A DNA stretch of 64,000 nt from Asparagopsis taxiformis (Eukaryota; Rhodophyta; Florideophyceae; Bonnemaisoniales; Bonnemaisoniaceae), in assembly GCA_030407315.1 (NCBI GenBank), contig JALQPE010001715.1, positions 25,559 through 89,558 on the forward strand. Reading direction: 5' to 3'. Under the pieces are notes generated by a model. That model was given only the letters and a program-made list of their open reading frames with translations, did not search any database and was not told the DNA's origin. A program made the position numbers and the translations under genes. Shown here in pieces: positions 15,140 to 64,000 of this stretch (positions are counted from its first letter, which is position 1; each line of letters begins with the position of its first letter).

Positions 15140-15153
15140 CTCATTCCCCCCCT

Positions 15154-17943: not shown

Positions 17944-17949
17944 AGTATA

Positions 17950-18475: not shown

Positions 18476-18478
18476 TAT

Positions 18479-18991: not shown

Positions 18992-18999
18992 TGTGTGGT

Positions 19000-37649: not shown

Positions 37650-38090
37650 CTCTGAACCACATATCAACCCCCCACTTCGCACCCATCCTCCCACTCTCGT
37701 CCCTCCCCAAATACAATAACCCCCTTCTTCTCCATCACATCCCCACTCACCAAAGCCAGAACAGACGCCACCCCCTTCCCGCCTCTTTCTCCTCACTTTC
37801 CTAAAAAACCCCTCCTCTCGGCGCCTTCAACCGCACCCTCCTACGGTCCCACCTAAACACCTCCTCCGCCCTCACTACCCCAACACCCCGCAGTGTCTCC
37901 CCAATCCCCATCATATGCTCGTCGGCACTCCTCTCCGAATCACAATCCAATCTAAACCCGCACTCCGTACATTTCCACCTCCCCCTGTACTATTCCAAGA
38001 TTGCATCCCTCCAGAGAACACATCCTCATACCACAGAAGAATTTTCTTCCTCTCATACCTCATCCTTAAAACCTCCATCAGCTCCATCTA
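37650..38090 (-). pseudogene. Decayed L-end gene with zinc-finger-like motif (element 2 copy)
   Basis: Minus strand, read toward the L terminus. Keeps WKCTECGFRLDCDSERSADE followed by HMMGIGE, VRAEEVFRWDRRRVRL, and, in another frame, GVASVLALVSGDVMEKKGVI. Differences from the element 1 copy include M to L, K to E and I to M, but an in-frame TAG precedes the zinc-finger block. The opposite strand gives long Pro/Ser-rich frames that are artefacts of the purine skew. Confidence 0.35.
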
Positions 38091-38427
38091 AATTTCGATG
38101 TAAATATTTTCTCCACTATGCAATCTCAAACATGTATGAACGTATGCCTTTCCGCTTTGTCAACCCTGAATATTGGTACTCATGTATTCATAAAATAGGG
38201 CCACCCACATCCCTATCCCGTTCTGCAAGCTTTACAAACCACTAGACGCATACTCCAGAACTATACAACAAACACTACTCGCTATTTCAGACGACGCGGT
38301 ACACAAATAGCGTAGTCTCAACCTTCCGTGAGGCCTTCTCTGATGCGCACAAGTGCGAAACACGTCTAGACGTACATCAGAAGTGAGCGCGGGATTTTTC
38401 GGCACAGGAGATGCTGGGCCACCAAAT

Positions 38428-40365
38428 TGGTTTTGCGGAAATTTTAGAATTTCTGGGCTGGCCAGCAATGCAATCGAGCTGGACATCCACCGGACGTCCA
38501 TTTCAGGTTGATCGTGAGAGAGTAGGGCGGGACCATGATGAAACAAGGACCAAGACCTGTCCCTGACGTGTTGAGCCTGAAATCGACCCTTCGTAAGACG
38601 CGATTTTGGCTTACAGTTGGTGCTTACAGAAGCCAGTGATGACCCCGGTCGGGGCGGCAGCCGGTTCCTGGGGCCGTTGTGGCCAAATTAGACACCTTGA
38701 TTTGAATTGAAATTTGGGCTATTCTCAAAAACATGCACATGTGAACATGTTTTTGAGATGGGGGTCTGCCGTACGGCACAATCGACCCGCCCAAATCGAT
38801 GATTTTTCACAATTTTTTTCTGCCCGAAATTTTAGAATTTCTGGGCTGGCCAGCAGTGCAATCAAGCTGGACATCCACCGGACGTCCATTTCAGGTTGGT
38901 CGTGTGCTGCCCACATCCATGCATTGCAGCAACTAAGCAGGCGGGCTCACTACTCATACAAAGTGCACGTAGCATGGGCAGCATGATGGATGAGCAGTGT
39001 TTGTCGTGAGAAAGTGGGGTGGGAGCATGTCGAAACAAGGACCAAAACTTCGCCCTGGCGTATTGAGCCTGAGCCTGGAATCGATCCTTCGTGAGATGTG
39101 GCTTTGCTTACAGTTGGTGCTTACAGAAGCCAGCGATGGCCCCGCTCGGGGCGTCGGATGGCTTCTTCTGGGGCCGTTGTGGCCAGATTAGACACCTTGA
39201 TTTGAATTGAAATTTGGGCTATTCTCAAAAACATGCACATGTGAACATGTTTTTGAGATGGGGGTGTGCCGTACGGCACTTTCGACCTCCCAAATCGATA
39301 TAATTTTGCAATTTTTTTTCTGACTGAAATTTTAGAATTTCTGGGCTCGCCAGCAATGCAATTGAGATGGACATTCACCGGACGTCCATTTCAGGTTGGT
39401 CGAGTATTGCACATGGATACAGTTTTGCAGCTATTTCTCAGCCCAACATTTTAGAATTTCAGGGCTGACCAGCAATGTAACCGAGGCGGACTTCCACTGG
39501 ACGTCCATTTCAAGTTAGGCTAGTGCTGCACATTTGCTCGCATCGCAGCAACTAAGCAAGTGTTGAGAGCACCGAGATGCCATGCAGACAAGAGGGAACC
39601 GGCTGCAAACGGCTTCCCTGGTCGGCAGCTGGATGTCTGGATGTCAATGGCTGCAAGCATGGAAATCTTGCTACCGCACGGCGCATACACACTGCAGCAG
39701 CACATCACTGACGCATGCGAAAGTTGGGTGCTGCAGTGCGTGGTTGTTTGTGTGTTTGTGTGTGCACGACGAACCTTGTGGTATCCCTAGGCGTGCACTG
39801 GTGCAAAACATTTGGACTGCCCCATCGGTCGTACTTTGACGCATTTACATGCATCGGAGAACGACCAAGGAGGTAGAGCAGCAATCGCTGTTGGCTGAGC
39901 GTCCAAATTGGAGGGCTTGGGACAATGGTTCTATAGCAGTCATTTATAGGACGCCCACCGTTGATGACTGAGATCCACGGTGGGTTTAGTATTCATGGTG
40001 TTGTCCTGCATTGGCGGATGTCGAAGACGAGTACTTCCAGTGAGCGTCCAAGCTGAACAGCGTGAGTGGGTAAGTGAGCGGGGAGGGGCCGCTCGGGGCG
40101 CTTGGTAGCTTCTGGGGCCGTTGTGGCCAAATTAGAATCGATTCTTGATCAAGCCTATGTCCGGCGGACGTCCTGAATTGCTTTATTTTTTGGGCTATTC
40201 TCAAAAACATGCACATGTGAACATGTTTTTGAGATGGGGGTGTGCCGTACGGCACTTTCGACCGCCCAAATCGATGTATTTTTGCATTTTTTTTCTGACT
40301 GAAATTTTAGAATTTCTGGGCTCGCCAGCAATGCAATTGCGCTGGTCATTCACCGGACGTCTATA
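38428..40365 (-). repeat. Left inverted arm of element 2 (palindrome units)
   Basis: Units on the minus strand at about 38428-38510 (truncated), 38670-38899, 39171-39400 and 40113-40365, with a partial one at 39440-39515. The stretch 39520-40110 between units matches 43520-44... of the right arm and 2280-2940 of element 1. This arm is nearly identical to 42976-44925 in inverted orientation. Confidence 0.85.
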
Positions 40366-40593
40366 TGCGCTCAAGCGATTGCTGTCTGCTTCAAATACCT
40401 GAGACATTATTGCCCCACACGACATAAAGTCCCCCAACATGCGACGCCCATCAAACATAAACATTTTCATGCTCTTACTACATTCTAGTCGCACACATAC
40501 ATCCATCTTCAAACAAAAAATGTCATTTAAACACCACCAGTCCCGCTTCATCGTACGCCAATACCGTCCAGTCGCCCAGCAGACAAGCTAGCC

Positions 40594-42288
40594 GTGCAGA
40601 AAACAAGCACTGCCATCTACGACGGAAACGACTGGATCTCATCATCGCTCTCAGCATTTCCAACAAGCCCAACATGTTTCCCCTACGTCACCCTGCAAAA
40701 CGATACCATTGTATACTTCTGCATTCTCCGTCAATTGCATTCATTCAATCTGCGCAATGAATTCTTCAATCTCGAAGCCGGCCGGGTTTTCTGCCCATCC
40801 TGCAATAAGGGCATTGGAGAAAGTTCTCTAACAATGGCCACTAAAGCCTTGATGCAACTACACGGTGCTGATTGCTTCTATCGCTTCCTCAAATCTGTCG
40901 ACATTTACAACATACCATCCATCCGAAACATTTCCAAACTAAACTAGACTGTTCATTGACAAACTCGTGTGTAGCCCCATTTAGACCACTCACCACTGGT
41001 ATCTGCTGAGTCACCGCGCACTGCCCTGGTGCTCCCTCCTGAATTCGCTTGGGCTGTCTCAATACATTCCGTACTATGCCTATGAAGCAGTCCCATTATG
41101 GATCAGCGTTCTGCGTGTTCAGCACATCATCCCCACGTTACCAGAGCTGCAATTTCTCAGCGGTACGGGTATCATCAATCCTTAGCACAGATGTGATACA
41201 GCAGCCGATGCAGGTCAATTTCTAGACTCGTAATTTTGCACTCAAGAAGGGAGATCGGTATGGAAATTGTCCAGGCATAACAAACCGCCTGTCCTGCTCT
41301 CCTGCAGAGCAAGCTCCATCGATCCAGTCGATCAGGAACCTGACGACATGTAGTCGGCGTTCGTTCCGGACGCGGAAAGGGCAAATTTTTGTGTGGCGTT
41401 TGCAGATTCAGTCGCAACGGGAAGCGATGAAACTTTCCGCATGGCGTTTGACTGCGGTTTATTTGAGACAGACATCGAGCGATCGGTGTTTCTGTCCAGA
41501 TGAAGCTGGAGATCAATGCCGTATTTGAGCTGATAATTGGAGCAAAGATTTGAAACAAATTTTCTGTGCAAATTTACGACGCGACACGGCGGAGGGTGGA
41601 TAACTCAACGTTAGATGTTATTGGTTGAGCCAACATTACAAGACCGTACCGACGACACGCGCAATCATTGATTTTTCGCTCATTGCTTAGGGAGCAAAAC
41701 TGTCCTATGGTCGTATCAAGTTAGACCAGCACATATTTCCGAAACATCTTGGTGGAACGAAGTCGGTGCTCACGAAAGCCTGAGAGCTGCCTTGAGTCGA
41801 GGATTTTGTACGCCGCCTTATCTGTGGTAGTTTCATACTGCGTTGTTTCACCGTTGGACCTGTGCCACGCACACTTGGATCTCTCTCCATACGTACGTGT
41901 AGATATGATGTGAATTGAGCTACAATAGCATACCAAACTGGAAACCAGTATCTACATGCTTTGTGAGAATATAATGCCTCTTCCTCGAGAAAAGGCCTCC
42001 TTCGGAATACTAGATTTCATTCAACCATATCCATCCATCTCCCATCGCTTCAGCATGAAATCATCACCATTCCATCCATCGCAACGTTCGTCTCTATCGA
42101 AACACTACTCTCCACACATCTCCCCGATCTTTCAGTCCGACCGTACCCGGCGGCGGCCGAGAGAAACGTACTGGCCATTGTTAAAAGTATCTACGACGGC
42201 AATGAGCGCATATATTAAATCATTCTCTATGTGAACACAGACCCTGATTGCCTCTCGTTTGTGGCAGAAATGAAACAAACACAAAGAC
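40594..42288 (+). pseudogene. Decayed or multi-exon gene, element 2 copy
   Basis: Counterpart of the minus-strand gene at 1-1805. The block 40594-40947 lacks an ATG and is preceded by GCCGTGCAG, which could be a splice acceptor. It carries IYDGNDWISSSLS and FNLEAGRVFCPSCNKGIGES. The block at about 41297-41520 (minus-strand mirror of the coding direction in element 1 must be read on the complementary frame) has acquired a stop where element 1 has Tyr. The block from 42190 has IYDGNERIY and DPDCLSFVAEMKQ. Function unknown. Confidence 0.3.
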
Positions 42289-42975
42289 TGCAACTCGTCC
42301 ATGCGAAAAGCAAAAGCTACAGATTTTTAGCAAGTATCGATAGCTACAAAGAACCACTGCAACGTTTATTCTAGACTTGTATACATTTTCATTAGCACTT
42401 ACATTACCATACACGAATAGTATTGCATTAAAGATGTTTATGAGAATGACAGGGGTCAGCGGCCGGGTTCCCTCCAGCTCAGCTTGGCTCAGCTCCGGAT
42501 GCAGATGTGGTGAAGGGAAGAGAGAAAAGTCAGATATTCTACCATGATCTGATTTGATTTGCAATCCGAGAACTTCTTGACTCCCAAAAGGTGTAAACAG
42601 TATCCCTGCATATTGGCATCGCCCAAAAGAACTGCAGCACTAACTCAATTTTCATTGCAGAGATCAGCACAACGTATTCGTCTTGAGTGTCACAAGTTGC
42701 AATTAGATGGCGCTGACTCGAAGCTAGGAGAGTTGGTAGTTGTGCCGAGTCGGCGTCTTCGGTTTGATCGCTCGTGTAAATATCCAAGCAAAATGGCAGG
42801 CAAGGAGATACAAAGCCACGCAACAATCAAGCTTACCACATTCCCCAGCCAGAATCACCATAGAAATCCTTGCAGTCTGCATCACACAGATCATCTTACG
42901 CAGTGCGTGCTGCCCAGGTCGTTATTCGGCCCTATCCAGAAACACTTTCAGGCCTAGTGCAACCAGTAGATCTGA
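42289..42975. other. Unique centre of element 2
   Basis: Not found elsewhere in the window. Opposing frames of 85-130 codons occur at 42539-42957; the minus-strand one (ending RIANQIRSW) looks slightly more protein-like, but nothing is recognisable. Confidence 0.3.
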
Positions 42976-44915
42976 AATGGAAATGGACGTCCGGTGAATG
43001 ACCAGCGCAATTGCATTGCTGGCGAGCCCAGAAATTCTAAAATTTCAGTCAGAAAAAAAATGCAAAAATACATCGATTTGGGCGGTCGAAAGTGCCGTAC
43101 GGCACACCCCCATCTCAAAAACATGTTCACATGTGCATGTTTTTGAGAATAGCCCAAAAAATAAAGCAATTCAGGACGTCCGCCGGACATAGGCTTGATC
43201 AAGAATCGATTCTAATTTGGCCACAACGGCCCCAGAAGCTACCAAGCGCCCCGAGCGGCCCCTCCCCGCTCACTTACCCACTCACGCTGTTCAGCTTGGA
43301 CGCTCACTGGAAGTACTCGTCTTCGACATCCGCCAATGCAGGACAACACCATGAATACTAAACCCACCGTGGATCTCAGTCATCAACGGTGGGCGTCCTA
43401 TAAATGACTGCTATAGAACCATTGTCCCAAGCCCTCCAATTTGGACGCTCAGCCAACAGCGATTGCTGCTCTACCTCCTTGGTCGTTCTCCGATGCATGT
43501 AAATGCGTCAAAGTACGACCGATGGGGCAGTCCAAATGTTTTGCACCAGTGCACGCCTAGGGATACCACAAGGTTCGTCGTGCACACACAAACACACAAA
43601 CAACCACGCACTGCAGCACCCAACTTTCGCATGCGTCAGTGATGTGCTGCTGCAGTGTGTATGCGCCGTGCGGTAGCAAGATTTCCATGCTTGCAGCCAT
43701 TGACATCCAGACATCCAGCTGCCGACCAGGGAAGCCGTTTGCAGCCGATTCCCTCTTGTCTGCATGGCATCTCGGTGCTCTCAACACTTGCTTAGTTGCT
43801 GCGATGCGAGCAAATGTGCAGCACTAGCCTAACTTGAAATGGACGTCCAGTGGAAGTCCGCCTCGGTTACATTGCTGGTCAGCCCTGAAATTCTAAAATG
43901 TTGGGCTGAGAAATAGCTGCAAAACTGTATCCATGTGCAATACTCGACCAACCTGAAATGGACGTCCGGTGAATGTCCATCTCAATTGCATTGCTGGCGA
44001 GCCCAGAAATTCTAAAATTTCAGTCAGAAAAAAAATTGCAAAATTATATCGATTTGGGAGGTCGAAAGTGCCGTACGGCACACCCCCATCTCAAAAACAT
44101 GTTCACATGTGCATGTTTTTGAGAATAGCCCAAATTTCAATTCAAATCAAGGTGTCTAATCTGGCCACAACGGCCCCAGAAGAAGCCATCCGACGCCCCG
44201 AGCGGGGCCATCGCTGGCTTCTGTAAGCACCAACTGTAAGCAAAGCCACATCTCACGAAGGATCGATTCCAGGCTCAGGCTCAATACGCCAGGGCGAAGT
44301 TTTGGTCCTTGTTTCGACATGCTCCCACCCCACTTTCTCACGACAAACACTGCTCATCCATCATGCTGCCCATGCTACGTGCACTTTGTATGAGTAGTGA
44401 GCCCGCCTGCTTAGTTGCTGCAATGCATGGATGTGGGCAGCACACGACCAACCTGAAATGGACGTCCGGTGGATGTCCAGCTTGATTGCACTGCTGGCCA
44501 GCCCAGAAATTCTAAAATTTCGGGCAGAAAAAAATTGTGAAAAATCATCGATTTGGGCGGGTCGATTGTGCCGTACGGCAGACCCCCATCTCAAAAACAT
44601 GTTCACATGTGCATGTTTTTGAGAATAGCCCAAATTTCAATTCAAATCAAGGTGTCTAATTTGGCCACAACGGCCCCAGGAACCGGCTGCCGCCCCGACC
44701 GGGGTCATCACTGGCTTCTGTAAGCACCAACTGTAAGCCAAAATCGCGTCTTACGAAGGGTCGATTTCAGGCTCAACACGTCAGGGACAGGTCTTGGTCC
44801 TTGTTTCATCATGGTCCCGCCCTACTCTCTCACGATCAACCTGAAATGGACGTCCGGTGGATGTCCAGCTCGATTGCATTGCTGGCCAGCCCAGAAATTC
44901 TAAAATTTCCGCAAA
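42976..44915 (+). repeat. Right inverted arm of element 2 (palindrome units)
   Basis: Units on the plus strand at about 42976-43235, 43951-44179 and 44451-44680, a truncated one at 44841-44915 and a partial one at 43835-43910. Translations of the two arms in any frame differ at almost no position (for example one Gly/Asp change), so they were duplicated or homogenised recently. Beyond 44925 the similarity to the left arm falls sharply but persists to about 45090. Confidence 0.85.
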
Positions 44916-45099
44916 ACCAATTTGGTGGCTCAGCATCTCCTGTGCAGAAAACTCTCGCACTCATTTCTGATATACGTTTTGACGTGTTTTTTACTTTTAA
45001 GCATCAGGAAAGGCGTTACGGAAAATTGGGACTACGCCACTTGTGAGCCGCGTCGTCTGAGATAGCGAGTAGAGTTTGTTGTATAGTATTTATATTGTA

Positions 45100-47077
45100 T
45101 TCCAAATGTGCGTTCGAGACCTCGTTTGTAATGTTCTCGTGGTTTTGTGGGTATCAGTTTTGTGCTCACTTCTGGCAGCCCAATGGTGGAATGTGCCTGA
45201 GCGATCAATCATCACCGCTAGGTCACACATTTTGCTGGCAACGTGCGCTTGGAAGGACGAATGACCGCCGTGGGAGATGGATTTTCAATTAATTCATTTG
45301 AAATAATAAAATTATATTAACTGCGAACTTCATGGAATAAGTTTGTGCTTTACAGTGGATATTACAGGGATCATTTAAGGGAAGCAAATGGATTGTGATA
45401 TATATGATTATACCATTCCGATGTTCTCGATCCGGATCTCATCATTCGGGAGTTCAGAGACCATGGCTTGGGCCATTATTAATCTCAATACCGGCGATGA
45501 TATGGAGTATGCACAGCAGGACTTAAGCTGACGTTGAAAGCTGTCCAGTCGACGCCGCAGGTTAATCTGTGGAGTTCCACTTCTCCGCCGTCACTGGCTG
45601 AGGTTCTTTGGTCGTGTTTCCTTTGTTTGGTGTAGAGGATAGAACGACGGTGAGTATGCCAGTTTGGAGAGTATGCAGCGAGGGAAGCGTGTGTTTTGAG
45701 TCGTACTGTTGTCGTTGATGCGATATTGATTCATTAGACGCTTCGTGAGTCGTGGTTTGCATGTTGTGAACCATGGGAGGCAGGTAAGTAAGTTAGTCTC
45801 GCGGGTGTGCAATAAGGGATGCATGGGTTTTTAGTCTGACTGTTCTGGTTCATTTTGATGTTGTATAGGTGGTGCAGGAATAGTGATGAAGTAAGGTAAG
45901 TTTCATTGAGCTGAAAGACGGGTTTCGCGATGAAATGGAATGCTGACTACATTTTTTCGTTGCACGATTTGTGAATTATTGGTTGTATTGTTTGTATGAT
46001 GCAACGAGATGAAGAGGTTAAGTGCGTCCTGAGGGTATGAAGCGAGGGAAGTGTTTGTTTTAAATTTGACTGTCGTCTTTTATGCAATATTTATTTATTG
46101 GGAGCTTAGTGAGTCATGGTGCATATTTGCTGAAGGGTGGAAGGAAGGTAGGCGAGCATTTGAGGGGTGCAGTGAGTGGAATGTGGGTTTTGAGTCTGAC
46201 TGCTGTGGTTGATGTTGATTTTGTGTAGGTGATTCTGGAATGGTGATGACGGAAGGTAAGTTACATTGAGCGCCTAGTTAAGTTGCGCGAAGATATGGAA
46301 TGCTGACTACATTTTTTTGTACAATTTTTGACTTATGGTTTCTATTGTGTGCAGGATACAACGAGGGTAAGTAAGTTCTGAGGGTATGCAGCGAGGGAAG
46401 CATGGGTTTTCAGTCCGACTGTTGTTGTTGATTTCGATTTTTTGTAGGTGATGCAGGAATGGTGATGACGGAAGGTAAGTTGCATTTAGCGCGCAGTCCG
46501 GTGGTGCGAAGATGCGGAATGTTGACTTCATTTGTTGGTTGTGAGATTTTCGACTTTTGGTCTGTATTGTGTGTAGAATGAAACGAGAGTAAGTGAGTTC
46601 TGAGGGTATGCATCGAGAGAAGTGTTTGTTTCGAATCTGACTATTGCAGTTAATGCGATATTTATTCATTGGAAGCTTATCCAGTCATGGTGCGTATTGT
46701 GTCGAGCGAAGGAAAGTGCGGAAGTTTTGAGAGTATGCTGAGAGGGACATGTGGGTTTTGAGTCCGACTGTTGTTGTTGATTTCGATTTTATGCAGGTGA
46801 TGCTGGAATGGTGATGACAGAAGGTAAGTTTCATTGAGCGCCAAGACTTGTTTTGCGAAGATATGGACTGCTGACTTTGATTATTCATTGCAAGGTTTTT
46901 GCATCATGGTTTGTATTGTGTGTAGGATGGATGAGAGGTAAGTAAGGGATTTTCTAAGATATCTGGCGTGGTAAGCGTTGCTTTTGAATCTGACTGTTGG
47001 GGTTGATGTTGTGTATGTGATGCAGGAGTGGTGAAGCAGGAACGGCAGGACTCAGGGAGAGTGAAGAAGGGATCTAG
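45100..47077 (+). pseudogene. R-end micro-exon gene, element 2 copy (mutated)
   Basis: Plus strand, read toward the R terminus. A hydrophobic start region (CVRDLVCNVLVVLWVSVLCS, about 45105-45165) and an exon with MAWAIINL (ATG 45473, ending CGCCGCAG at 45560, with two in-frame TGA) precede a series of tiny exon-like blocks with consensus splice sites. 12-nt blocks: 45638-45649, 46355-46366, 46577-46588, 46926-46937. 18-nt blocks: 45878-45895, 46238-46255, 46457-46474, 46806-46823. Nearly every block is followed by GTAAGT or GTGAGT. The last exon starts at 47026 and stops at 47077 (SGEAGTAGLRESEEGI). Degenerate blocks lie near 45775, 46000, 46130 and 46700, and two 18-nt blocks have CTG instead of CAG at the acceptor. 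Confidence 0.45.
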
Positions 47078-47387
47078 GAAGATGGGGAATGAAGCTGTGA
47101 GGTGTTTCTGGTATGTGTATATTTTCGGGCATACGATAGAAGTAAGAGTGGGTTTCAAGTCGTGTAAGATTTTGCTGACCATGTTCGTGTTTCATGTCTT
47201 GATGATTTAATGGGCTGGGGTGGTGTCGAGGAAAGCGGGGATGGAATTGGGAAGGAGCAGATTTTTTGTAATCTAGGTCGTGAGGGTTCTTGAAGTATGT
47301 GCGGATGGTGGTGCATGGCGTTCGGATGGTAGGGAGAACGCGATAGTGAGGGAGATGGGTGATCGACGGTATGCTGACAGGTATTTT

Positions 47388-47520
47388 GTATTCTGGCTGG
47401 ATACGTATTCCATATTCTAGCTGGATACATATTCCGTATCCTGGCTGGATACGTATTTCCTATTCTAACCGGGTATTTATTTCCTATTCTGATCAGATAT
47501 GTATTTCCTATTCTAGAGAG
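47388..47520 (+). repeat. 24-bp tandem repeat near the R end of element 2
   Basis: About five copies of a unit like CTGGCTGGATACGTATTCC, which would translate as repeats of SGWIRIPY. The frame has no other sign of being a gene. The mirror array in element 3 is at 54325-54437. Confidence 0.7.
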
Positions 47521-47639
47521 ACTTATTGTATACCAGCAGTTTCGTAAATGAGAGAATAAAATACGGTCCGATATGGGCCCTCAATTTACCATCCGCTGTA
47601 ATTTCTTCCCTCCCGGTTTTTGCTGATATATTGTATACT

Positions 47640-47943
47640 GAATGTCGGGTCCTAGGATCCCGCCAAACGTACTAGAGAAACTGGATGTCGGGTCCTAGTA
47701 CTCCGCCGAACGTACTAGAGAAACTGGATGTCGGGTCCTAGTATTCCGCCGAACGTACTAGAGAAAGTGGATGTCGGGTCCTAGTATTCCGCCGAACGTA
47801 CTAGAGAAAGTGGACGTCCGCATCCAAAAAATTTTAATTTTTTTTCGGACGCGGACGTTCATTTGTTCTAGTAAATCTCGGGGCCGACTAGGACCCGTAC
47901 TAGAGAGACTGGACGTCCGCGTCCACTTCCGAAAACACAGACG
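47640..47943 (+). repeat. R terminus of element 2 with 43-bp minisatellite
   Basis: Four 43-bp units (core GGATGTCGGGTCCTAGTA, CTCCGCCGAACGTACTAGAG) lead into GGACGTCCGCATCC, an A/T run, a CTAGTA-rich stretch and the terminal GGACGTCCGCGTCC followed by AACACAGACG. Confidence 0.85.
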
Positions 47944-47945
47944 AT

Positions 47946-53712: not shown

Positions 53713-53812
53713 CGAACAACTTTCTTTTCCGCCCCGTGTCCACGGTCATGTCTCGTCCTCTTCTCGAACATCTTAACGAACAACTCACTACTTACAATGC
53801 TTACAGCTGTAT

Positions 53813-54200
53813 CGTCTGTGTTTTCGAAGTGGACGCGGACGTCCAGTCTCTCTAGTACGGTCCTAGTCGGCCCCGAGATTTACTAGAACAAATGAACGTC
53901 CGCGTCCAAAAAAAAATAAAAATTTTTTGGATGCGGACGTCCACTTTCTCTAGTACATATGGCGGAATACTAGGGCCCGACATCCACTTTCTCTAGTACA
54001 TATGGCGGAATACTAGGACCCGACATCCACTTTCTCTAGTACATATGGCGGAATACTAGGACCCGACATCCACTTTCTCTAGTACGTTTGGCGGAATACT
54101 AGGGCCCGACATCCACTTTCTCTAGTACGTTTGGCGGAATACTAGGACCCGACATCCACTTTCTCTAGTACATATGGCGGAATACTAGGACCCGACATCC
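53813..54200 (-). repeat. R terminus of element 3 with 43-bp minisatellite
   Basis: Terminal repeat, GGACGCGGACGTCC, CTAGTA-rich stretch, A/T run, GGATGCGGACGTCC and then six 43-bp units (53941-54199), against four in element 2. Units differ at a few sites, for example GTACATATGG or GTACGTTTGG. Confidence 0.85.
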
Positions 54201-54324
54201 AGTATACAATATATCAGCGAAAACCGGGAGGGAAGAAATTACAGCGGATGGTAAATTGAGGGCCCATATCGGACCGTATTTTATTCTCTCATTTAGGAAA
54301 CTGCTCGTATACAATACGTCTCTC

Positions 54325-54437
54325 TAGAATAGGGAATACATATCTGGTCAGAATAGGAAATAAATACCCGGTTAGAATAGGAAATAAATACCCGGTTAGA
54401 ATAGGAAATACGTATCCAGCCAGAATACAAAATACCT
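54325..54437 (-). repeat. 24-bp tandem repeat near the R end of element 3
   Basis: Inverted counterpart of the array at 47388-47520, with about four to five copies and unit boundaries blurred by substitutions. Confidence 0.65.
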
Positions 54438-54738
54438 GTCAGCATATCGTCGATCACCCATCTCCCTCACTATCGCGTTCTCCCTACCATCCGAACGCCA
54501 TGCACCACCATCCGCACATACTGCAAGAACCCTCACGACCTAGATTACAAAAAATACGCTCCTTCCCAATACCATCCCCGCTTTCCTCGACACCACCCCA
54601 GCCCATTAAATCATCAAGACATCAAACACGAACATGGTCAGCAAAATCTTACACCACTTGAAACGCACTCTCACTTCTATCGTATGCCCCAAAATATACA
54701 CATACCAGAAACACCTCACAGCTTCATTCCCCATCTTC

Positions 54739-56419
54739 CTACATCCCTTCTTCACTCTCCTTCAGTCCTGCCGTTCCTGCTTCACCACTCCTGCATCACA
54801 TACACAACATCAGAATCAACCACAACAGTCAGACTCAAAAGCAACGCTTACCACGACAGATATCCTAGAAACTCCCTTACTTACCTCTCCGAGAGGATGA
54901 CTGAATCATCCATCCTACACAAAATACAAACCATGATCCAAAACCTTGCAATGAATAATCAAAGTCAGCAGTCCATATCTTCGCAAAACAAGTCTTGGTG
55001 CTCAGTAAAACTTACCTTCTGTCATCAACATTCCTGCATCATCTACACAACATCGGAATCAACCACAACAGTCAGACTCAAAACCAACCTTCCATCACAG
55101 CATACTTTCAAAACTCGCACACTTACCTTCGCTCCACACAATACACACCATGACTCAATAGGCTTCCAATGAAAAATATCGCATCAACGGAAATAGTCAG
55201 ACTCAAAACCAACCTTCCCTCGCTGCTTACTTTCAAAACTCGCACACTTACTTTACCTGTTCCATCCTGCACACAATAAAAACCATAAATCACGTAATCG
55301 TGTAGCCAAGAAAAGTAGTCAGCATTCCGCATCTTCGCACAACCGGTCTGGGCGCCCAATGTGACTTACCTTCCGTCATCACTATTCCTCCATCACCTAC
55401 GCAACATCGGATTCAATCGCAACAGTCAGATTGAAAACCAACGTTTCCCTCGCTACATACCCTGAGAACTCGCAAATGTACCTCTCATCCATCCTACACA
55501 CAATACAAACCATGATCCAAAAACCTTGCAACTAACAATAATCATAGTCAGCAGTCCATATCTTCGCAAAGCACATCTTGGCACTCAATGAAACTTACCT
55601 TCCGTCATCAACATTCCTGCATCATCTACACAACATCGGAATCAACCACAACAGTCAGACTCAAAATCAACCTTCCCTCACAGCATACTTTCAAAACTTC
55701 ACGTACCTCTCTTCCATCCTCCGCTCAATACACACCATCAGTCAACAGGCTTCCCATGAAAAATATCGCATCAACGGAAATAGTCAGACTCAAAACCCAC
55801 GCTTCCCTCAACGCATACCCTCGAGGGTAGAGGATGGAACGAAGGTACGTGCGCGAATCTTGATCAAGATTCGCGCACGTACAAAGCAAAGTCGGTCAAA
55901 GAAGATCAGTCGGTGATGAGGGCGGAGTGGAGCCTGCGGCGTCGACCGGACAGCTTTCTGCGTCCGCTTAAGTCTTGCTGTGCATACTCGAAATCATCGC
56001 CGGCAGTGAGATTGAGTATGGCCCAAGCCATGGTCTCTGATTCCCCGAACAAAGAGATCCGGATCGAGAACAACGAATATAAACATATAATCATATATAT
56101 GAGAATCCATTTGCTTTCCTTACATGATCTGTGGCATATCCGCTGTAAAGCACATTCAGATTCCACGAAGTTTGGAAATAAAAAAGTTTATTATTACAAA
56201 TGAATTAATTGAAAATTCATCTCCCAGGGCAGTCGTTCGTCCTTCCATGCACACGTTGCCAGCACGCAATGTGATGTAACAGTTGGAAATGATTGAACTC
56301 TCGGTTAAATTCCACCGTTGGGATGTCAGCTGGAGTGAGCACAAAACTACTACCCAAAAAACTACGAACACGTTACATTCCAAGTCTCGAAAGCACCACA
56401 AAAATAAAATTGGTCGCAT
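54739..56419 (-). CDS. R-end micro-exon gene (element 3 copy)
   Basis: Minus strand, read toward the R terminus. Opening frame from ATG 56419 (MRPILFLWCFRDLECNVFVV, hydrophobic, possibly a signal or anchor). Exon with MAWAILNLTAGDDFEYAQQD from 56031, usable to CGCCGCAG at 55934. Then small blocks alternate: 12-nt at 55718-55707 and 55493-55482, 15-nt at 55266-55252, 30-nt at 54914-54885; 18-nt at 55616-55599, 55387-55370 and 55033-55016. Each is followed by GTAAGT, GTACGT or GTACAT and usually preceded by TAG, CAG or GAG. All lengths are multiples of three and share one phase, so joining gives repeats like RMDER-NVDDR. Final exon 54790-54739 (SGEAGTAGLKESEEGM, stop). No family recognised. The first 12-nt block is inverted at the palindrome, so this copy may also be damaged. 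Confidence 0.45.
55845..55882. repeat. 38-bp perfect palindrome at an inverted micro-exon
   Basis: Half-site GTACGTGCGCGAATCTTGA followed directly by its exact complement. The left side continues as GATGGAACGAAG (55833-55844), a 12-nt micro-exon in plus orientation, opposite to all others in this gene. The palindrome thus begins with that exon's donor GTACGT. Confidence 0.95.
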
Positions 56420-56479
56420 CTGGACGGCACAGTCTCCCCTGTTCAGCTCGCAATCCTCCCTTTTGCGTCAAAACTCGAC
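56420..56479. promoter_or_regulatory. Putative divergent promoter of the micro-exon and transposase genes
   Basis: Only 60 bp separate the opposing ATGs at 56419 (minus) and 56480 (plus). If both starts are right, the two genes share a compact bidirectional promoter or have longer overlapping leaders. No TATA box seen. Confidence 0.35.
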
Positions 56480-59400
56480 ATGGAATGCAAGTATGAAGGG
56501 TGCTTCTACTACTGCGTAGATGCTTATGCGCTCGCGCTGCATGAGCGAACGTGTCGCTACCGTTTCAACCCCTCTCCCCAACATTTCAACAACGCTCGTG
56601 TCCCTGCCGTCACCCATGAGCCTGCTCGAAACGGCGACCATGATTCCCCGCAACCCAGCTCCCCAGACCCAGAATCTGGTCGTGCTTCCTCCAGCGACTC
56701 ACCCTGTGACGCTTCACTGCCACCAACCTCAACCCCCTCCCGCGCAGACCTCCTCGTGCAATCCCTCGCCGCCAGTCTCACAACCCTCGAGTACAAGGCC
56801 GGCGCTGGCCGCGTGAGCGAAGTCATCACCATCCTACAAGACCCCGCATTCTCCCTAGAAAAGTTCAACAGCGCCGTTCGCACCGTAGAAGAATGTCGCC
56901 ACGTTACCGCTTCCATGGTCGAAACACATTTCCGCACCGAAGGTTACAAGAGCCACATCATTCCAGACAAAACTGGTAAGTACTCGGCACAGCTGTACCT
57001 CCGCGACCCAGTCGACATGCTCCGCAGGCAGTTAGCACTGGCTAACGACCAAAATACTCTCTTCCACCCCTCCCCACAGACCGCCCCAGACGGCACCGCA
57101 ATATTTTCTCATCCCCTACACACAGAATTCGCGAAAACGCTGCACCAGGTTACTAGACAGCGCGTGCAGCTCTCGGAAGATCCACAGGTCGTATGGGCAG
57201 AGGAAAATGATCCCACCGCTTCCTCCTTTGCCGGCCTCCTCCAAGTGTACTCCGACAAGAGCAGCACAAGCCTCAAGAGCTCCGCAATCGTCGCATACCC
57301 CATACACGTCACACTGCTCAACTTCTCCGCCCCCCTCCGTCGCCACTGCATCCGTACCGGCCTCACCATCGTCGGGTATCTTCCGTACATTGTTAACCCT
57401 TCGTCCAACGCCTTGTTCGGTGATGAAATGCCGACAACCTCTAGTTCTGCTAGTCGCGCTCGCAAAATTGATATTCTTCATAAAGCACTCGAAAAAGTGT
57501 TTTCGTCCCTATCCACCGCGTTCTCTTCCGGGTTCCCCTGCACAGACTCCACTGCAACTGCCCGCCAATGCTTTCCCATCCTAGCCAATTATTGCTGCGA
57601 CTTTCCAGAGGCCAAAGAGCTCTCATGCACTCGCAACAGCACTACCACCACACATCCCTGCCACCGCTGCTACATCCCCGCCACTCAACTTGAATCCAGC
57701 GCGCCACACCAGCCCCGCTCCCTCGATGATACACGCTCTGCACGCCAAGAGAGCGCTCAGGAGCATACAACTGCTCCGCTCGAAGCTCTCTCCCTCCTCG
57801 AACAACACTCTGTCCTCGAATCGACCGCTCTTTTACCCACCAACAGTCCCCTAGACCCCTACAACATTTTCTCCTTCGAGCCTCTGCACAATCTCCACCT
57901 CGGCATCTCAAAGCTCATCAAACAGTGCATTGTCCACCGCCTCAGCTCCCCAGACCTCACCACCACTGCCTCCCATTCCGGGACACCTCGCACCTTCAAG
58001 AAGGTGAAAAAATCCATCCTCGCCGGCTCAAACAGCATTCTGTCCGCTATCGAACGCGACTACTACATCACCGGTCTTCATGTCGACTTCTCCAAGGGTG
58101 AGAAGGGCACCAATTTGAACGGCCTCTTCACGGAGGACGGCATACGCGGCATGCTCGCAGCCAAAGACTATCACCATGTCGACATGGTGTTCCCTTTCAT
58201 CGCAGCATTCATTGACACATGCTGTGACGAAGTAGATACAGCCCCCCTCACTTCCATCTGCACGCAATACTCTGACCTCGTCGCATGGGTCATGAAACGC
58301 GGTCGCATCAAGCACTGGACTGCCGCCGAACTAGAAAGCCTCCAGAACTCCATTTCCTATTTCAAACAATCAATGCTCTCCACCCTCGGCCCATTCCACA
58401 CCACAGGTCTCAAAACTTTCAAGTTCCATCTTCTAGACCATCTTCCCGGTGACTTGCAGAGATATGGCGCCCTGGAACACATTGATGCAGGCCCCTACGA
58501 ACACTCGCATCTTCTGTTCAAACAGAGTTATAGGAAAACCTCTCGAAGGCGCTCCACAGCCATGGAAGAGACTATTCGCCACATGGAATTCTCCTTGGCC
58601 ACTCCAACTGGTCATACCCCATCGAACACATTGGGAAACGCACGCATGATATCGCCCACAGACGGTGCAGTACTCGTTCGCGACGGATTCACCGTTGCAC
58701 TGCACGACTTTGCCTCCCTGCTGCCCGATGCAACCCTCCTCGTTGCAGATATCGACGGACAGCCCGATCCTGCCACTCTTTTGCCGCTGCACAACTCCTC
58801 GTTCCCGTCTGGCACCATAACGCTATTCCAGCAACTCGGTGACACAGCTGCACAAGCGTTCCTCACCCTCGCTAGACTGCGCGCCACGGCAGAAGGCCCT
58901 CCAATACATGACATGGACATTTCCGTCACCGTGGTAAAGTCCGCCTACGTCATGGGAGGGTACGTCCCAGATGCCGACGACTTTGACCCGCACAGTGGCA
59001 TGCTTCGCCCCACAAACGTGTCGAGGCACAAGCAGCAGCGCGTCTTTGCAACTTCATCGTTCGGCCCCGCAAAGAGATCGCAGTACTCCTTTGTCGTCAT
59101 CTCCGGAACTGCCGATGACTACAGAACCATATGGGTAGGGCGCGTCCTGGCACTGGTACGCCTGCAGTCTCCAAACCTGTTTCAACCTGTAGAACTCGCT
59201 TTCGTTCAGTATATGACCTGCTTTGCCCCAAAAACCGCTGTGGAAAAATCACTTGGGTGCATTTGTTTAAAGTGGTCCACATGGGACCCGGACAACGGAT
59301 CCGTTGACAGCAATGACACTGCATCCCACAGTGCAGGTGGTCCTTGGTTTGACCTCATTCCTGCATCTACTATATCTGGCACCGTGCACATCGTACGAAG

Positions 59401-59518
59401 TAACTTTCCAGTCAAGCCATTTACGAAACAAATGCACTGGTCGGACCACCGTTTCTATCTCAACCGCTTCTACACCAACACTGATTACCAATTCACAGAT
59501 GATAATGAAGAAGAATAA
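56480..59518 (+). CDS. Plavaka-like (CACTA/CMC) transposase, 1012 aa
   Basis: Intact frame. N-terminal C2H2/C2HC-like finger (C3, C8, H21, C25). Then DDE core: YSDK (257-260, first Asp D259) followed by AYPIHVTLLNFSAPLRRH and VGYLP, the block typical of Plavaka proteins (YSDK...YPVY.TIGN...RR...GYLP); CCDFPEAKELSCTR (D374) with PCHRCYIP at 393-400; SFEPLHNLHLGISKLI (acidic residue at 467); KFHLLDHLPGDLQRYG near 648-663 with a YRKTSRRR basic stretch. This order is that of the TNP2-type transposases of CACTA elements, which cut at both ends and leave 2-3 bp duplications. Family assignment is from remembered motifs. Divergent from the micro-exon gene, convergent with the next gene. Plavaka is best known from mushroom-forming fungi, so its presence here is notable. 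Confidence 0.75.
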   Translation: MECKYEGCFYYCVDAYALALHERTCRYRFNPSPQHFNNARVPAVTHEPARNGDHDSPQPSSPDPESGRASSSDSPCDASLPPTSTPSRADLLVQSLAASLTTLEYKAGAGRVSEVITILQDPAFSLEKFNSAVRTVEECRHVTASMVETHFRTEGYKSHIIPDKTGKYSAQLYLRDPVDMLRRQLALANDQNTLFHPSPQTAPDGTAIFSHPLHTEFAKTLHQVTRQRVQLSEDPQVVWAEENDPTASSFAGLLQVYSDKSSTSLKSSAIVAYPIHVTLLNFSAPLRRHCIRTGLTIVGYLPYIVNPSSNALFGDEMPTTSSSASRARKIDILHKALEKVFSSLSTAFSSGFPCTDSTATARQCFPILANYCCDFPEAKELSCTRNSTTTTHPCHRCYIPATQLESSAPHQPRSLDDTRSARQESAQEHTTAPLEALSLLEQHSVLESTALLPTNSPLDPYNIFSFEPLHNLHLGISKLIKQCIVHRLSSPDLTTTASHSGTPRTFKKVKKSILAGSNSILSAIERDYYITGLHVDFSKGEKGTNLNGLFTEDGIRGMLAAKDYHHVDMVFPFIAAFIDTCCDEVDTAPLTSICTQYSDLVAWVMKRGRIKHWTAAELESLQNSISYFKQSMLSTLGPFHTTGLKTFKFHLLDHLPGDLQRYGALEHIDAGPYEHSHLLFKQSYRKTSRRRSTAMEETIRHMEFSLATPTGHTPSNTLGNARMISPTDGAVLVRDGFTVALHDFASLLPDATLLVADIDGQPDPATLLPLHNSSFPSGTITLFQQLGDTAAQAFLTLARLRATAEGPPIHDMDISVTVVKSAYVMGGYVPDADDFDPHSGMLRPTNVSRHKQQRVFATSSFGPAKRSQYSFVVISGTADDYRTIWVGRVLALVRLQSPNLFQPVELAFVQYMTCFAPKTAVEKSLGCICLKWSTWDPDNGSVDSNDTASHSAGGPWFDLIPASTISGTVHIVRSNFPVKPFTKQMHWSDHRFYLNRFYTNTDYQFTDDNEEE

Positions 59519-59595
59519 ATCTAAATCGCAGCACTCTATTGATAATGTACTACATGATAAACCTTCTAGTCAACGTCACATTTACTGCACTAATT

Positions 59596-61665
59596 TCAAC
59601 CATCCTCCATTACGCCAAAACCGTTATCAGCAGTGGCTGCATGGCGCCGCTCCATGCCCCCATACTGTGGGGCATTGATTTCGACATTCAGGTTTGCAGT
59701 CAGGTGTCCAGCATATGGGTCAACGACGAAAAGTTCTGCGCCAATTAGTCCTTGCGCAATCACACAATCCATTACAGCACCGAGGTTTGACGTAATATGC
59801 GATTGAATCCAATCCTCGGACACTAGAACAAGTGATGAGCAGCGGTTTACATCATCAACGACATGAACAATTCCAGACCCCTCTCCGCTTTGCCACACTT
59901 CAACAGCCTCTCTCGTCACAGTACGGCTTGCAAACACATGCCGTGACTGTGCACTAGTCCGCTGTTCGCTCTCGACAACGTCCGTTTCTTCCCTTGCTTG
60001 CGAGCCTTGGAGACAAGACATGCAGTACACCACCATACCAACTAATTGCTGAAAAGCTACCCCCACATATTGACTGTACCGCCTTGTAAACTCCTTCTGC
60101 CGTGCACCTCCTTTCCCCTTCGGTTCATCCAAACACTCCACAGTAGTCACTAGCCAAGCATCCAGGCGCGCCAGCGTTAGTATGCTCGTCTCTATGTCCA
60201 TTACTTGTTCTGGTCGTATCGAATAACCCCTGAAGATGTCCAGCACATTCACAGCTACTCGGTTGTTAAACCATGCATCACCATTCACTTCCATTTCGAA
60301 GCTGTCAGGAACCAAGCCTTTGCTGTATCGCAGCTCTGAGAACGGTGCCGTTCGCCACCTCCCCATATCCAAATCACCGTTACTTTCCCGTTTCAAAAGC
60401 TTCTCAGACGCTTCGCGCTTTTGTTCCTCTCGCTCGTCCATCTCAGCTCGCGTCGTCAGCATCGTGCATCTAGACATTAATTTTGTGTACCCCAGCGAAC
60501 CGAACAATCTGTCCCTCGCATTACGCTTCCGTGCACTCATCACGTCGGACAGTTTCTGCGTCACCTTCACTTTCAATTCCTTGCTCCCCGCCACAGCCTC
60601 TTGACAGCACACACGCTGCTCCTCATCGGAAAACACATCACACCACGGACTTTGACGCAGTACGTGTCGCACCAAGTCATTCAGCAGATCACTCTCGTCC
60701 CTGTACGAAGGTGTATACCACTGCAGATTCTTGATGATATAGCCCGGAGGGGTAGCAATATATCCTACACCGTTTTCGCTCCAAAGTGCCCCTTCTACCG
60801 GCTCTACCTCGATGGTACGTCCAGTCCAACGTCTCTGCGTTTGTTCCGCTATAGGGTCCAGCTCCATAGTCTCGTTCTTGCACCACTTTGTCAGGTTTTC
60901 CTCAACCGCCCTAAGAACTCCAAGGTATTTCACAGGAATGGCTTTCTGTATTTTCGACTTACCGCCACCGTGATCACTGATTCTACCTGTTCTCGCAATT
61001 GCAGTAAGGCTGGCATTTTCCGCCTGCAGAGTCTTCACCTTAGCCTCCAACGCAACAATCTCCGTGGTGAGCGCCTTGTTTGCTATGTCCTGGCTAAACA
61101 CTTTTTTTTCCAGCTCCGCGATCTTCTTCTTCTGCGCATTGATGCGACTCGCCATTAAATCGATGGATTCCGGCGGATGCAACCTCTCTGCCCTCACCGT
61201 CCCCCCATCTCGCACGCTATCGGGAATATGATGTCCTCCATCGCCAATAGCCTGACGTCGCGGGGGCGTTACGCGCATATTTGGCACCAATGACACTCTG
61301 TTGTGACGAGGCCCGCACTCCGGCTGCTCTCTCCCCTCAGTACCACCTGACCGCCGATGATAGTTGGCATCCTGTGAACGTTGCTCAGAAACAACATCCC
61401 TTGCCGCTATCCTCGGGTCCCTGACTGCATTACCTGCTGGGGCTGATGTACTCGGCATAGTTGGCGCAGTGGGGGTCACAGCCTCCAGTGTGTCGGAAGC
61501 CCCCGGCTGGGACTCCGTCTGCAGCACCTCCGCATCTGCCAACCCGGGAGGAACTACCTTTGCCATAGCACTCTGCCGCAATTCCAACATGTTTTGAGCC
61601 ACTATCATGTCATCATCATGATGTTCACTGTCCCTGCGAGCACGCTTGCCTCGGTCAAGCCCCAT
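59596..61665 (-). CDS. Coiled-coil protein, partner of the transposase (at least 689 aa)
   Basis: Minus strand, tail to tail with the transposase with 77 bp between stops. The first ATG in frame is at 61665; the frame is open to 61962 without an ATG, and another frame has MPPRIAKKAPKPPGLQ at 61882, so the true N-terminus may need a splice or shift near 61660. Contents: basic patch GKRARRDSEHHDDD, disordered linker, coiled coil with heptads (INAQKKKIAELEKKVFSQDI onward to about 50 residues), then a folded C-terminal 400 residues with KYLGVLRAVEENLTKWCKNE, DVMSARKRNARDRLFGSLGY. No family recognised. By position it corresponds to the second gene of CACTA elements (TNPA-type subterminal-repeat binder); this is inference. 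Confidence 0.6.
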   Translation of the reverse strand: MGLDRGKRARRDSEHHDDDMIVAQNMLELRQSAMAKVVPPGLADAEVLQTESQPGASDTLEAVTPTAPTMPSTSAPAGNAVRDPRIAARDVVSEQRSQDANYHRRSGGTEGREQPECGPRHNRVSLVPNMRVTPPRRQAIGDGGHHIPDSVRDGGTVRAERLHPPESIDLMASRINAQKKKIAELEKKVFSQDIANKALTTEIVALEAKVKTLQAENASLTAIARTGRISDHGGGKSKIQKAIPVKYLGVLRAVEENLTKWCKNETMELDPIAEQTQRRWTGRTIEVEPVEGALWSENGVGYIATPPGYIIKNLQWYTPSYRDESDLLNDLVRHVLRQSPWCDVFSDEEQRVCCQEAVAGSKELKVKVTQKLSDVMSARKRNARDRLFGSLGYTKLMSRCTMLTTRAEMDEREEQKREASEKLLKRESNGDLDMGRWRTAPFSELRYSKGLVPDSFEMEVNGDAWFNNRVAVNVLDIFRGYSIRPEQVMDIETSILTLARLDAWLVTTVECLDEPKGKGGARQKEFTRRYSQYVGVAFQQLVGMVVYCMSCLQGSQAREETDVVESEQRTSAQSRHVFASRTVTREAVEVWQSGEGSGIVHVVDDVNRCSSLVLVSEDWIQSHITSNLGAVMDCVIAQGLIGAELFVVDPYAGHLTANLNVEINAPQYGGMERRHAATADNGFGVMEDG

Positions 61666-62679
61666 CTCTCTCCGCGCCGTTCTCCCCTTCCTCACTTTCT
61701 CGCTGCGGATCCCCAGATCTGCGCCGGTCCGTCTTGCGACTACCGGACCGCGGTTCAATGCTGCCGGTAGGCCCAGACCGCTTCTTCGCACGGGATTGTC
61801 GGGCACTCGATACAGCAGCTGCTGACCGGGTTTTCTGGAGGCCCGGAGGCTTTGGAGCTTTCTTCGCAATACGCGGCGGCATAATGAAGCTTTCCCGGAA
61901 GCGATGGAACGATTGAGTTGCACGAGATACAAAAAAGATTGCTGTATAGTGTCGGTAACCACAACGGTCTGCGATGAACGTTCAGGTCAGGTCAAGTACC
62001 GGATAATACGCCAACAGCCCAGATTGTATACGGTAGGCAGTCATCAACAGTATTTAATGAGGTACAATTACAGCTGTCGAGCTAGGCCGCGAGCACCCCT
62101 ATGTCCGGAAGACGTCCTGATTTGAATTAAAATTTGGGCTATTCTCAAAAACATGCACATGTGAACATGTTTTTGAGATGGGGGTGTGCCGTACGGCACA
62201 ATCGACCGCCCAAATCGATGTTTTTTGCAATATTTTTTTTGTGCCCGAAATTTTAGAATTTCTGGGCTGGCCAGCAATGCAATCGAGCTGGACATCCACC
62301 GGACGTCCATTTCAGGTTGGTCGTGAGAGAGCGGGGCGGGACCATGATGGAACAAGGACCAAGACCTGTCCCTGGCGTATTGAGCCTGAAATTGACCCTT
62401 CGTCAGACGCCATTTAGCCTTACAGTTGGTGCTTACAGAAGCCAGTGATGACCCCGCTCGGGGCGGCGGTCGGTTCCTGGGGCCGTTGTGGCCAAATTAG
62501 ACACCCTGATTTGAATTAAAATTTGGGCTATTCTCAAAAACATGCACATGTGAACATGTTTTTGAAATGGGGGTGTGCCGTACGGCACAATCGGCCGCCC
62601 AAATCAAGGTTTTTTACAATATTTTTGCTGCCCGAAATTCTACAATTTCTGGGCTGGCCAGTAATGCATTAGCTATGTG

Positions 62680-63130
62680 CTCTAAACCGATTCTAACAAG
62701 CAGAAAGAATCCTCTCCTTCATGACGATGCTCTCGAATTGAGTGCAATGCAACGGACTCCCTCCAGGAGAACGACAAAGCATCGTCTTTTGCAAGACATT
62801 TTCGTACGAAAAATAATCGAAACACATATTTGACTTTAACCTAACAGCTATCGCGAGCACCGTACTCAGCTAAATTTCCTCTGTAATTTCCTTCCTCCAA
62901 CCAATCAATAGCCGCTTGGTCACAGGCTTAAAAGCCTTCCACTATTTGTCCTATCCATCGAAGAGGGTTCGATCCAGGCCTTGATGGGTGTGGAACCCGA
63001 GAACTTGAAAATGGAACATATTGCGACAGAGATGAGATGTCATTCTCTTTCGTTTACTTTTTTTCTAACAAGATTCTAAACGTCTACGCAGCGGAACGAA
63101 CCCAATGTCGTCCGTCCGTTTTCAGCCCGG
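62680..63130. other. Spacer in element 3
   Basis: Between palindrome units; no gene seen. Confidence 0.3.
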
Positions 63131-63140
63131 TGAGATGTTT

Positions 63141-63475
63141 TTGCCATTAACGGAGGTGGAGGCGGCTATGGAGGAAGCCTGCGGTTCGGGTATTCTTTCC
63201 ATTAACGGAGGTGGAGGTGGCGGCTTTGGAGGAAGCCTGGAGAACATGTGAGATGTCAGTACCCATGGATCACAAGAAAAACATGTAGAGGTCCAGTTTG
63301 GATATTGTTGCCATTAACGGAGGCGGAGGAGGCGGCTACGGTGGAAGCCTGGAGAGCATGTGAGATGTCAGTACCCATGGATCACATGAAGAACATGTTG
63401 AGGTGCGGTTCGGATATTCTTTCCATTAACGGAGGCGGAGGAGGCGGCTACGGTGGAAGCCTGGAGAAGAATAGA
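63141..63475 (+). repeat. Glycine-codon-rich tandem repeat
   Basis: Four copies of a block with CCATTAACGGAGG and GGCTACGGTGGAAGCCTGG, at about 63148, 63200, 63311 and 63422, the last three about 111 bp apart. Each block would read SINGGGGGGYGGSLE, but stops (TGA after GAACATG) separate them, so a continuous protein is not encoded in one exon. Confidence 0.75.
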
Positions 63476-64000
63476 ATAGTCCTATACCCATGGATCACAA
63501 GTAGACGTAGTTGGGCTCCTTTTCGAAGCCCATTCGTCTCTTGAATAAATTTAGCACCCAAATCATATACGATTGCCGAGTTGACACCCCGTATGTCTCG
63601 TTGGTAGAAATAGCAGGGGTTCCACCACTCAGCTGGCGGGAAGTAGTTACTGATTATATGAGTATGGCTTAGCTCCCGCCAAAACCGATAGCTCTGGGCT
63701 CAGGTTCTCCAAATGTGGTTATACGAATGTGTTCTGACAATGGTAGAAAGACGAATATCTGCATCCTGCTTTGAATTAAATTTGGGCTATTCTCAAAAAC
63801 ATGCACATGTGAACATGTTTTTGAGATGGGGGTGTGCCGTACGCACAATCGACCGCCGAAATCGATGTTTTTTTGCAATATTTTTTCCTGCCCGAAATTG
63901 TAGAATTTCTGGGCTGGCCAGCAATGCATCTGAGTCGGACATCCCACGTCCAGTGGCCGTCCGGGATTTCGCTCACCTGGTAAGCGTGAGGCACCTGTTT

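Follow-up and report, generated by a model that had tools for sequence, protein, structure and literature searches.

The window analysed here is the whole 64,000-nucleotide stretch of the Asparagopsis taxiformis contig. It contains two large DNA transposons, elements 2 and 3, each with an array of very short, exon-like blocks. A first-pass annotation had described these blocks as a micro-exon gene carried by a transposon in a genome of mostly uninterrupted genes. The setting agrees with what we found: both arrays lie inside large DNA transposons, as indicated by transposase, inverted ends, and target duplications, and in the available portion of the report on the A. taxiformis L6 assembly, 6,737 of 10,474 genes are single-exon (PMC12115072). 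The same portion gives 142.47 Mb in 3,308 contigs for that assembly, with DNA transposons making up 33.5% (PMC12115072). The red-algal genome that we searched comprises 141.5 Mb in 3,156 contigs; its thirteen phycobilisome matches, 11 on a single contig (C469), indicate a red alga.

Element 2 (36796..47943, plus strand) is bounded by the inverted ends CGTCTGTG and CACAGACG and flanked by AT on both sides. It has terminal inverted repeats, CGTCTGTGTT on the left and CACAGACG on the right, as expected of a Plavaka-type element. A 2-bp target duplication flanks each of the five element-2 copies studied (AT, AT, TA, TG, and TC); one of the five shares its flanks with the window copy, so the insertion sites number at least four. 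The copy at G000:C1595 (approximately 9331-20478) has host flanks identical to those of the window copy, and represents either a duplicated segment or the other allele. No transposase was found within element 2 among ORFs of at least 200 aa, so the element would be non-autonomous; an ORF matching DDE_Tnp_1_7 (35949-36839) overlaps its left end by 44 bases. The inverted arms of element 2 (38260-40364 and 42983-45087) are 2.1 kb long and 98.6% alike, and end just before two outward stretches, A and B.

Element 3 (53813..64000, minus strand) has its right end at 53813 and continues beyond the end of the window; its left end lies outside, and the target duplication result applies to element 2 only. 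The right end, CACAGACG, is the same as that of element 2 and is present in 26 of 30 element-3 copies; by eye, the sequence beyond it differs among copies. A 1012-aa ORF (56480..59518, plus strand), divergent from stretch B, belongs to the Plavaka transposases by its match to PF18759 (E 1.6e-24; 87.2 bits against a cut-off of 26.3). The 788-aa ORF at 59596..61962 (minus strand) looks coiled-coil-like by eye and is a candidate second transposition protein; a Pfam search returned only a NET2A match below the cut-off. A genome search for more distant Plavaka families yielded 46 scored matches, each with 39-40% identity to its query. Fungal Plavaka elements, in the part of the source that we draw on, are related to EnSpm, generate target duplications of 2 or 3 bp, and in some cases encode TET/JBP dioxygenases; the ends published there for PlavakaA and PlavakaB are TGT..ACA or CATCA..TGATG (PMC12730594). 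The ends found here, CGTCTGTG..CACAGACG, differ from these, so the element was assigned to neither PlavakaA nor PlavakaB.

Other genes and elements surround the two transposons or occur in their relatives. An element-3-type copy contains a 1,151-aa ORF (L059:106-3561, minus strand) that joins an N6/N4 DNA methylase (PF01555, E 4e-15) to a SET domain (PF00856, E 1e-6), which makes it a transposon-encoded modifier fusion. The 1,360-aa ORF of element 1 (4488-8570, plus strand) has no Pfam match, and its DNA is 97% identical in another element-3-type copy, L062; by eye, it has stretches that may be ParB-like and dioxygenase-like. A Ty3/gypsy-like element lies at 11297-17271, and Copia-type remains (47944-53812, with an RVT_2 match at 52333-53022) fill the space between elements 2 and 3. 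WD40-repeat ORFs at 20117-25898 (minus strand) show 76% similarity across 0.9 kb; the portion of the genome report cited above describes WD40 genes as numerous in Asparagopsis (PMC12115072).

Micro-exons and splice signals of unit B

Stretch B, which we call unit B, is a predicted transcription unit at 54280..56396 (minus strand) in element 3 and at 45108..47560 (plus strand) in element 2. In self-comparison, 55933-56396 of element 3 matches 45108-45561 of element 2. The homology of the two elements starts at 56396 and 45108, the latter just past the end of the element 2 arm at 45087, a position that suggests a cassette, unit B, set behind a different promoter in each element. Transcription would probably begin inside the element, run outward, and stop at an AATAAA (54280-54285 in element 3, 47555 in element 2). 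In both copies, this signal is located between 24-nt repeats and 43-nt subterminal tandem repeats, which in element 3 occupy 54326..54435 and 53936..54201 (both minus strand). Stretch A, at the opposite end of element 2 (36796..38260, minus strand), is G-rich and faces outward; it served as an internal comparison, together with stretch A of element 1 (10046..11515, plus strand). Its two copies, 1,465-1,470 nt long, contain neither GTAAGT nor CTGAC, against 6-10 GTAAGT and 10-13 CTGAC in unit B.

The alternating short blocks noted in the first-pass annotation are present at 54739-55718 (minus strand) and 45638-47077 (plus strand), with donors and, for the most part, YAG acceptors. In element 3, the predicted order begins with a 12-nt exon at 55707..55718 (weak acceptor GAG, donor GTACGT), followed by a 27-nt exon at 55599..55625 (27 nt counted from TAG, 18 from a second AG; donor GTAAGT) and a 12-nt exon at 55482..55493 (donor GTACAT). 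Further exons of 27 nt (55370..55396; 18 from the second AG), 15 nt (55252..55266), 27 nt (55016..55042; again 18 from the second AG), and 30 nt (54885..54914, with an internal palindromic insert by eye) all have the donor GTAAGT. The last exon, 52 nt up to the TAG of the frame proposed earlier, lies at 54739..54790. Element 2 has 12-nt exons at 45638..45649 (acceptor GAG, donor GTGAGT), 46355..46366, 46577..46588, and 46926..46937, and 27-nt exons at 45869..45895, 46229..46255, 46448..46474, and 46797..46823; its 52-nt last exon is at 47026..47077. More degenerate modules also occur: near 45784 and 55126 there is a donor with no clear exon, and in blocks near 46005-46018 and 46136-46148 the acceptor is lost or the donor altered. 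By eye, micro-exons of element 3 and its relatives are replaced or made longer by palindromic inversions or inserts at 55800-55880 and 54885-54914, all of them perhaps scars of template switching.

Donors resembling GTAAGT follow nearly all blocks, as had been claimed, and they are confined to the sense strand. GTAAGT itself occurs six times at 54739-55718 and ten times at 45638-47077, never on the antisense strand, and 0.3-0.6 times in shuffled sequences. The motif AGGTAAGT occurs five and six times on the sense strand of the two arrays, compared to 0.02-0.03 times in dinucleotide shuffles. A CTGAC-like branch motif stands upstream of the YAG acceptors, and donors and branch motifs together are far above shuffles on one strand only. 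When seven modules of elements 2 and 3 were aligned, no variation was seen in the branch motif's GAC or in the first AG ahead of the long exon; the GTAAG donor was invariant too, by construction, GGTAAG having been part of the search pattern. A simple splicing rule takes a branch motif, then the first AG no closer than 22 nt (a minimum that we chose), then the next donor. It recovers 7/7 long exons of the two elements as 27 nt, with a spacing of 33 between branch and acceptor, and places most short exons at a spacing of 52-57. It misses the 12-nt exon at 55482..55493, where an AAG further up comes first, and at weaker modules some of its calls are misplaced.

The acceptors proposed earlier need one correction. 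TAG or CAG does precede most blocks as YAG, except that for GAATG blocks it stands 9 nt further upstream. Among the 75 GAATG blocks in 25 sequences, the first AG is kept in 74 and the second in 64. With the first AG in use, the exon has 27 nt and a TGA falls in the frame proposed earlier. The blocks had also been said to be multiples of three in every case, a rule that copies with other lengths contradict: 3 of 76 long exons have 26 nt, and 11 of 98 short exons have 11 or 14 nt (a count that omits 17 false 13-nt matches inside the last intron, two of which were inspected). One such change, an 11-nt first exon, is common to 6 of the 25 sequences. The rule rests on few independent events, because two exon types, of 27 (or 18) and 12 nt, have been copied; later length changes gave 15 and 30 nt, and also 11, 14, 26, and 29 nt. 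The multiples of three thus mostly reflect tandem copying of two exon types.

Genome-wide, the arrangement AGGTAAGT-CTGAC-YAGG gave 0 matches with shorter spacings against 14 for the reversed control, and 12 against 32 with longer spacings, nine of the 12 being, by eye, variants of the same array. Outside the array, the genome thus shows no enrichment of this intron grammar, and support for the branch motif is confined to the array. A genome-wide search for a spliced retrocopy with one exon-exon junction pattern had 0 matches.

These observations bear on the possibility that nothing is spliced and that the tandem repeats act as DNA, for instance as protein-binding sites near the transposon end, an explanation to which we give a minor share of probability. 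The tandem modules lie near two other repeat arrays, they resemble one another in their exon cores and over much of their introns, and the grammar is not visibly common to host introns. CACTA elements are also described, in the part of the source consulted, as having repeated subterminal binding sites (PMC2613891). However, DNA-binding sites do not predict a GT donor, a branch motif, and an AG acceptor in fixed order and spacing on a single strand, and the 43-nt array, being closer to the end, is the likelier binding site.

Copy number and conservation of the splice signals

A 28-base pattern covering the beginning of the last exon has 1,175 matches in the 141-Mb genome, and its reversed control none; a pattern of long exon and donor has 2,520 matches, with none for its control. 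Across 30 element-3 copies, the window copy included, only 2 of 1,476 positions of unit B vary, which points to a very recent spread of element 3. The number of modules differs among copies: L054 and L057 have one long exon, element 3 has three, and element 2 has four. Extrapolating from about seven introns per copy, with the caveat that module number varies, 1,175 copies would hold approximately 8,200 predicted introns.

To measure which parts of unit B are kept, 25 sequences were assembled: elements 2 and 3 themselves, plus 23 fetched loci. Of these loci, 22 were picked from the first approximately 100 of the 2,520 long-exon-pattern matches, and one came from another pattern. Tests within the element-3 group used 17 of the 25, omitting element 2, its near relatives L034 and L050-L053, and L054 and L057. 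In these 17 sequences, branch and acceptor positions vary less (3/56; branch 1/35, acceptor 2/21) than inner intron positions (138/674; Fisher p 0.004, block permutation p 0.0036). Variation was found at 21/150 micro-exon, 3/52 last-exon, and 4/42 donor positions; the long exons and their donors are biased in these counts by the way the copies were chosen. The donor variation, and the loss of a donor or an acceptor in a small number of modules, count against preserved splicing. An MK-like test comparing shared to single-copy changes gave p 0.19, in the direction opposite to that expected under selection, and singletons are depleted at functional positions too. Part of the signal may therefore stem from alignment, sampling, or mutation.

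Between elements 2 and 3, changes affect 7/66 branch, 5/36 donor, and 3/18 acceptor positions, against 165/792 in the remainder. The exons are uneven: 3/54 positions changed in long exons, 11/36 in short exons, and 3/52 in the last exon. The stretch after the last exon is as conserved as the last exon itself, with 1/59 changed, and the 3' part of unit B may have been exchanged between elements. A third family was represented by L075 and L076, which are 99% alike and, over long pieces, show a similarity of approximately 72-83% to elements 2 and 3. Compared to element 2, its splice signals are changed at 15/116 positions and its introns at 229/904 (p 0.0025, or p = 0.02 without the approximately 14 splice positions fixed by the search pattern). 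Its exons, at 28/129, are changed no less than the introns (p 0.45). The last exon of the third family did not align and was compared by eye.

Together, the donor, branch motif, and acceptor occur in order and vary less than the rest of the array, as spliceosomal introns would. The sequence gives good support for a spliced-looking micro-exon array on a transposon. On the same counts one might suppose that this transposon family rivals host genes as a source of spliceosomal introns (approximately 8,200 against approximately 3,700 multi-exon genes), its introns being kept for splicing itself, e.g., as a means of being taken for an ordinary gene and avoiding silencing, or of loading the spliceosome; we offer this as a tentative idea that is rather unlikely to be right as a whole.

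Reading frames in the three families

The first-pass annotation had joined the blocks into a protein gene, in which symmetric exons in one phase encode an acidic/arginine repeat. On this reading the protein would have approximately 57 aa and end in SGEAGTAGLKESEEGM, perhaps with some exons skipped. In its favor, frame 1 of element 3 is fully open with the second AG, for 57 codons up to that ending. By eye, the joined frame begins with a charged stretch. The claim does not carry over to element 2: its nine listed exons have no open frame with either AG, because two long exons (46229..46255 and 46797..46823) have lost the second AG to CTG, which in the first of them puts a TGA in the proposed frame. 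In the third family the frame is also closed without skipping; its last exon has TGG in place of the expected stop TAG, and it contains one 29-nt and one 11-nt exon. Without skipping, the splice forms open in the proposed frame are 1/8 in element 3, 0/4 in element 2, and 0/4 in the third family. Skipping leaves 128/432, 96/576, and 40/288 forms open, respectively, which favors the protein.

The pattern of substitutions is divided in the same way. Variable micro-exon columns fall on codon positions 1, 2, and 3 in the numbers 8, 5, and 5, with no concentration at third positions. Last-exon differences had been called silent or conservative. There are four variable sites among elements 2, 3, and relatives (from a tree and change count that included the deleted copy L054); three are at third positions, as a protein would predict, yet only one is wholly silent. 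A K/R change at codon position 2 marks element 2 and its relatives, and within the element-3 group all three variable last-exon columns are at third positions. Exon columns have fewer indels (9/108 against 161/835, p 0.005), in copies mostly picked by the long-exon pattern and to that extent biased. The low divergence of the long exons between elements 2 and 3 also favors a protein, whereas the changes in the short exons, the 11-nt first exons, and the exons of the third family, no better conserved than introns, speak against it. The joined 52-residue peptide had no homologue in one search. A conserved 5' coding region (the MAWAIL... frame) was rejected as well, being interrupted in element 2 and several copies and varying like introns (94/347 against 199/835 columns).

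We rejected protein coding as the main reading on exon lengths, codon positions, and frames closed across families, and regard a micro-exon protein gene as improbable. The splicing signals look preserved and the reading frame does not, so the product of unit B is probably a spliced RNA. The conservation of the long exons and the last exon is not needed by a purely non-coding product; the stretch that follows the last exon is equally conserved.

Two other products were considered. A TnpA-like second protein for transposition, encoded in numerous exons like that of maize Spm/En, is very unlikely: Plavaka transposases do resemble EnSpm in the section of the survey used (PMC12730594), and the abundant Spm transcript holds 11 exons of tnpA in the text available (PMC2613891), but the joined frame here is short and not common to the families, and the 788-aa ORF at 59596-61962 would be the better candidate. 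Tandem box C/D small RNA genes would account for TGATGA and CTGA boxes approximately 60 nt apart and in order in most of the seven modules, but were dismissed as highly improbable, since no Rfam snoRNA scored above threshold (the best, snR76 at 56173-56247, reached 18.3 bits against a cut-off of 55 and lies outside the modules) and no terminal stem was seen by eye.

Proposed RNA product and known systems

With moderate confidence, we favor a reading in which a large Plavaka-type (CACTA-related) DNA transposon has in unit B a transcription unit built as a tandem micro-intron array, and in which this unit most likely yields a spliced RNA with essentially no coding function. Each module would comprise an intron of approximately 80-105 nt, a 27-nt exon, a second intron, and a 12-nt exon. 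Host spliceosomes most likely would remove the introns by way of GTAAGT, CTGAC, and the first YAG. Recombination between introns would have multiplied the modules, so that their number differs among copies. The feature best kept would be the splicing grammar, and not the amino-acid sequence; alternatively, the RNA might encode only a short peptide from the last exons. As for use to the element, splicing itself may boost the expression of the transcript or its export, or may label it as the product of an ordinary gene.

Should the array be spliced, a mobile element may be among the main sources of introns in a lineage that has few of them, and splice signals kept with no protein to justify them would allow a direct test of what a transposon gets from splicing by itself. 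More than 1,000 closely related natural micro-intron arrays would then also be at hand for the study of exon definition. For gene annotation, we advise caution, as such arrays could yield many false multi-exon models. Titles and abstracts of open-licence literature on micro-exons, transposons, Plavaka, and red algae did not describe such an array, and no paper on Plavaka in Asparagopsis was among them.

The element resembles fungal Plavaka (CACTA/EnSpm-related) elements in its transposase family, in the 2-bp target duplications and inverted ends (demonstrated for element 2), and in the presence of extra DNA or chromatin modification genes. It differs in its red-algal host, in the ends CGTCTGTG..CACAGACG, and in the micro-intron array. 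Like tnpA of maize Spm/En, unit B is a multi-exon transcription unit (here predicted) in a CACTA-type element; unlike tnpA, the array has no long common frame across families, and its exons of 12-30 nt are arranged in tandem modules.

The micro-exon genes of flatworms consist of very small, symmetrical exons, give signal-peptide products, and are apparently restricted to platyhelminths, as far as the cited text goes (PMC4350168). The array shares with those of schistosomes the runs of very small, mostly symmetric exons. In contrast to them, it is borne by a transposon, has no family-wide frame, and owes its exon lengths to the copying of two exon types; most of the coding sequence lies in very small symmetric exons in element 3 alone, and there with the second AG. 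Spliced non-coding RNAs with repeated exons also exist, in which splice signals are kept better than exon sequence. Unit B is similar to these in that its splice signals outlast its exon sequence, and differs from them in its micro-exon size, its location on a transposon, and its very high copy number.
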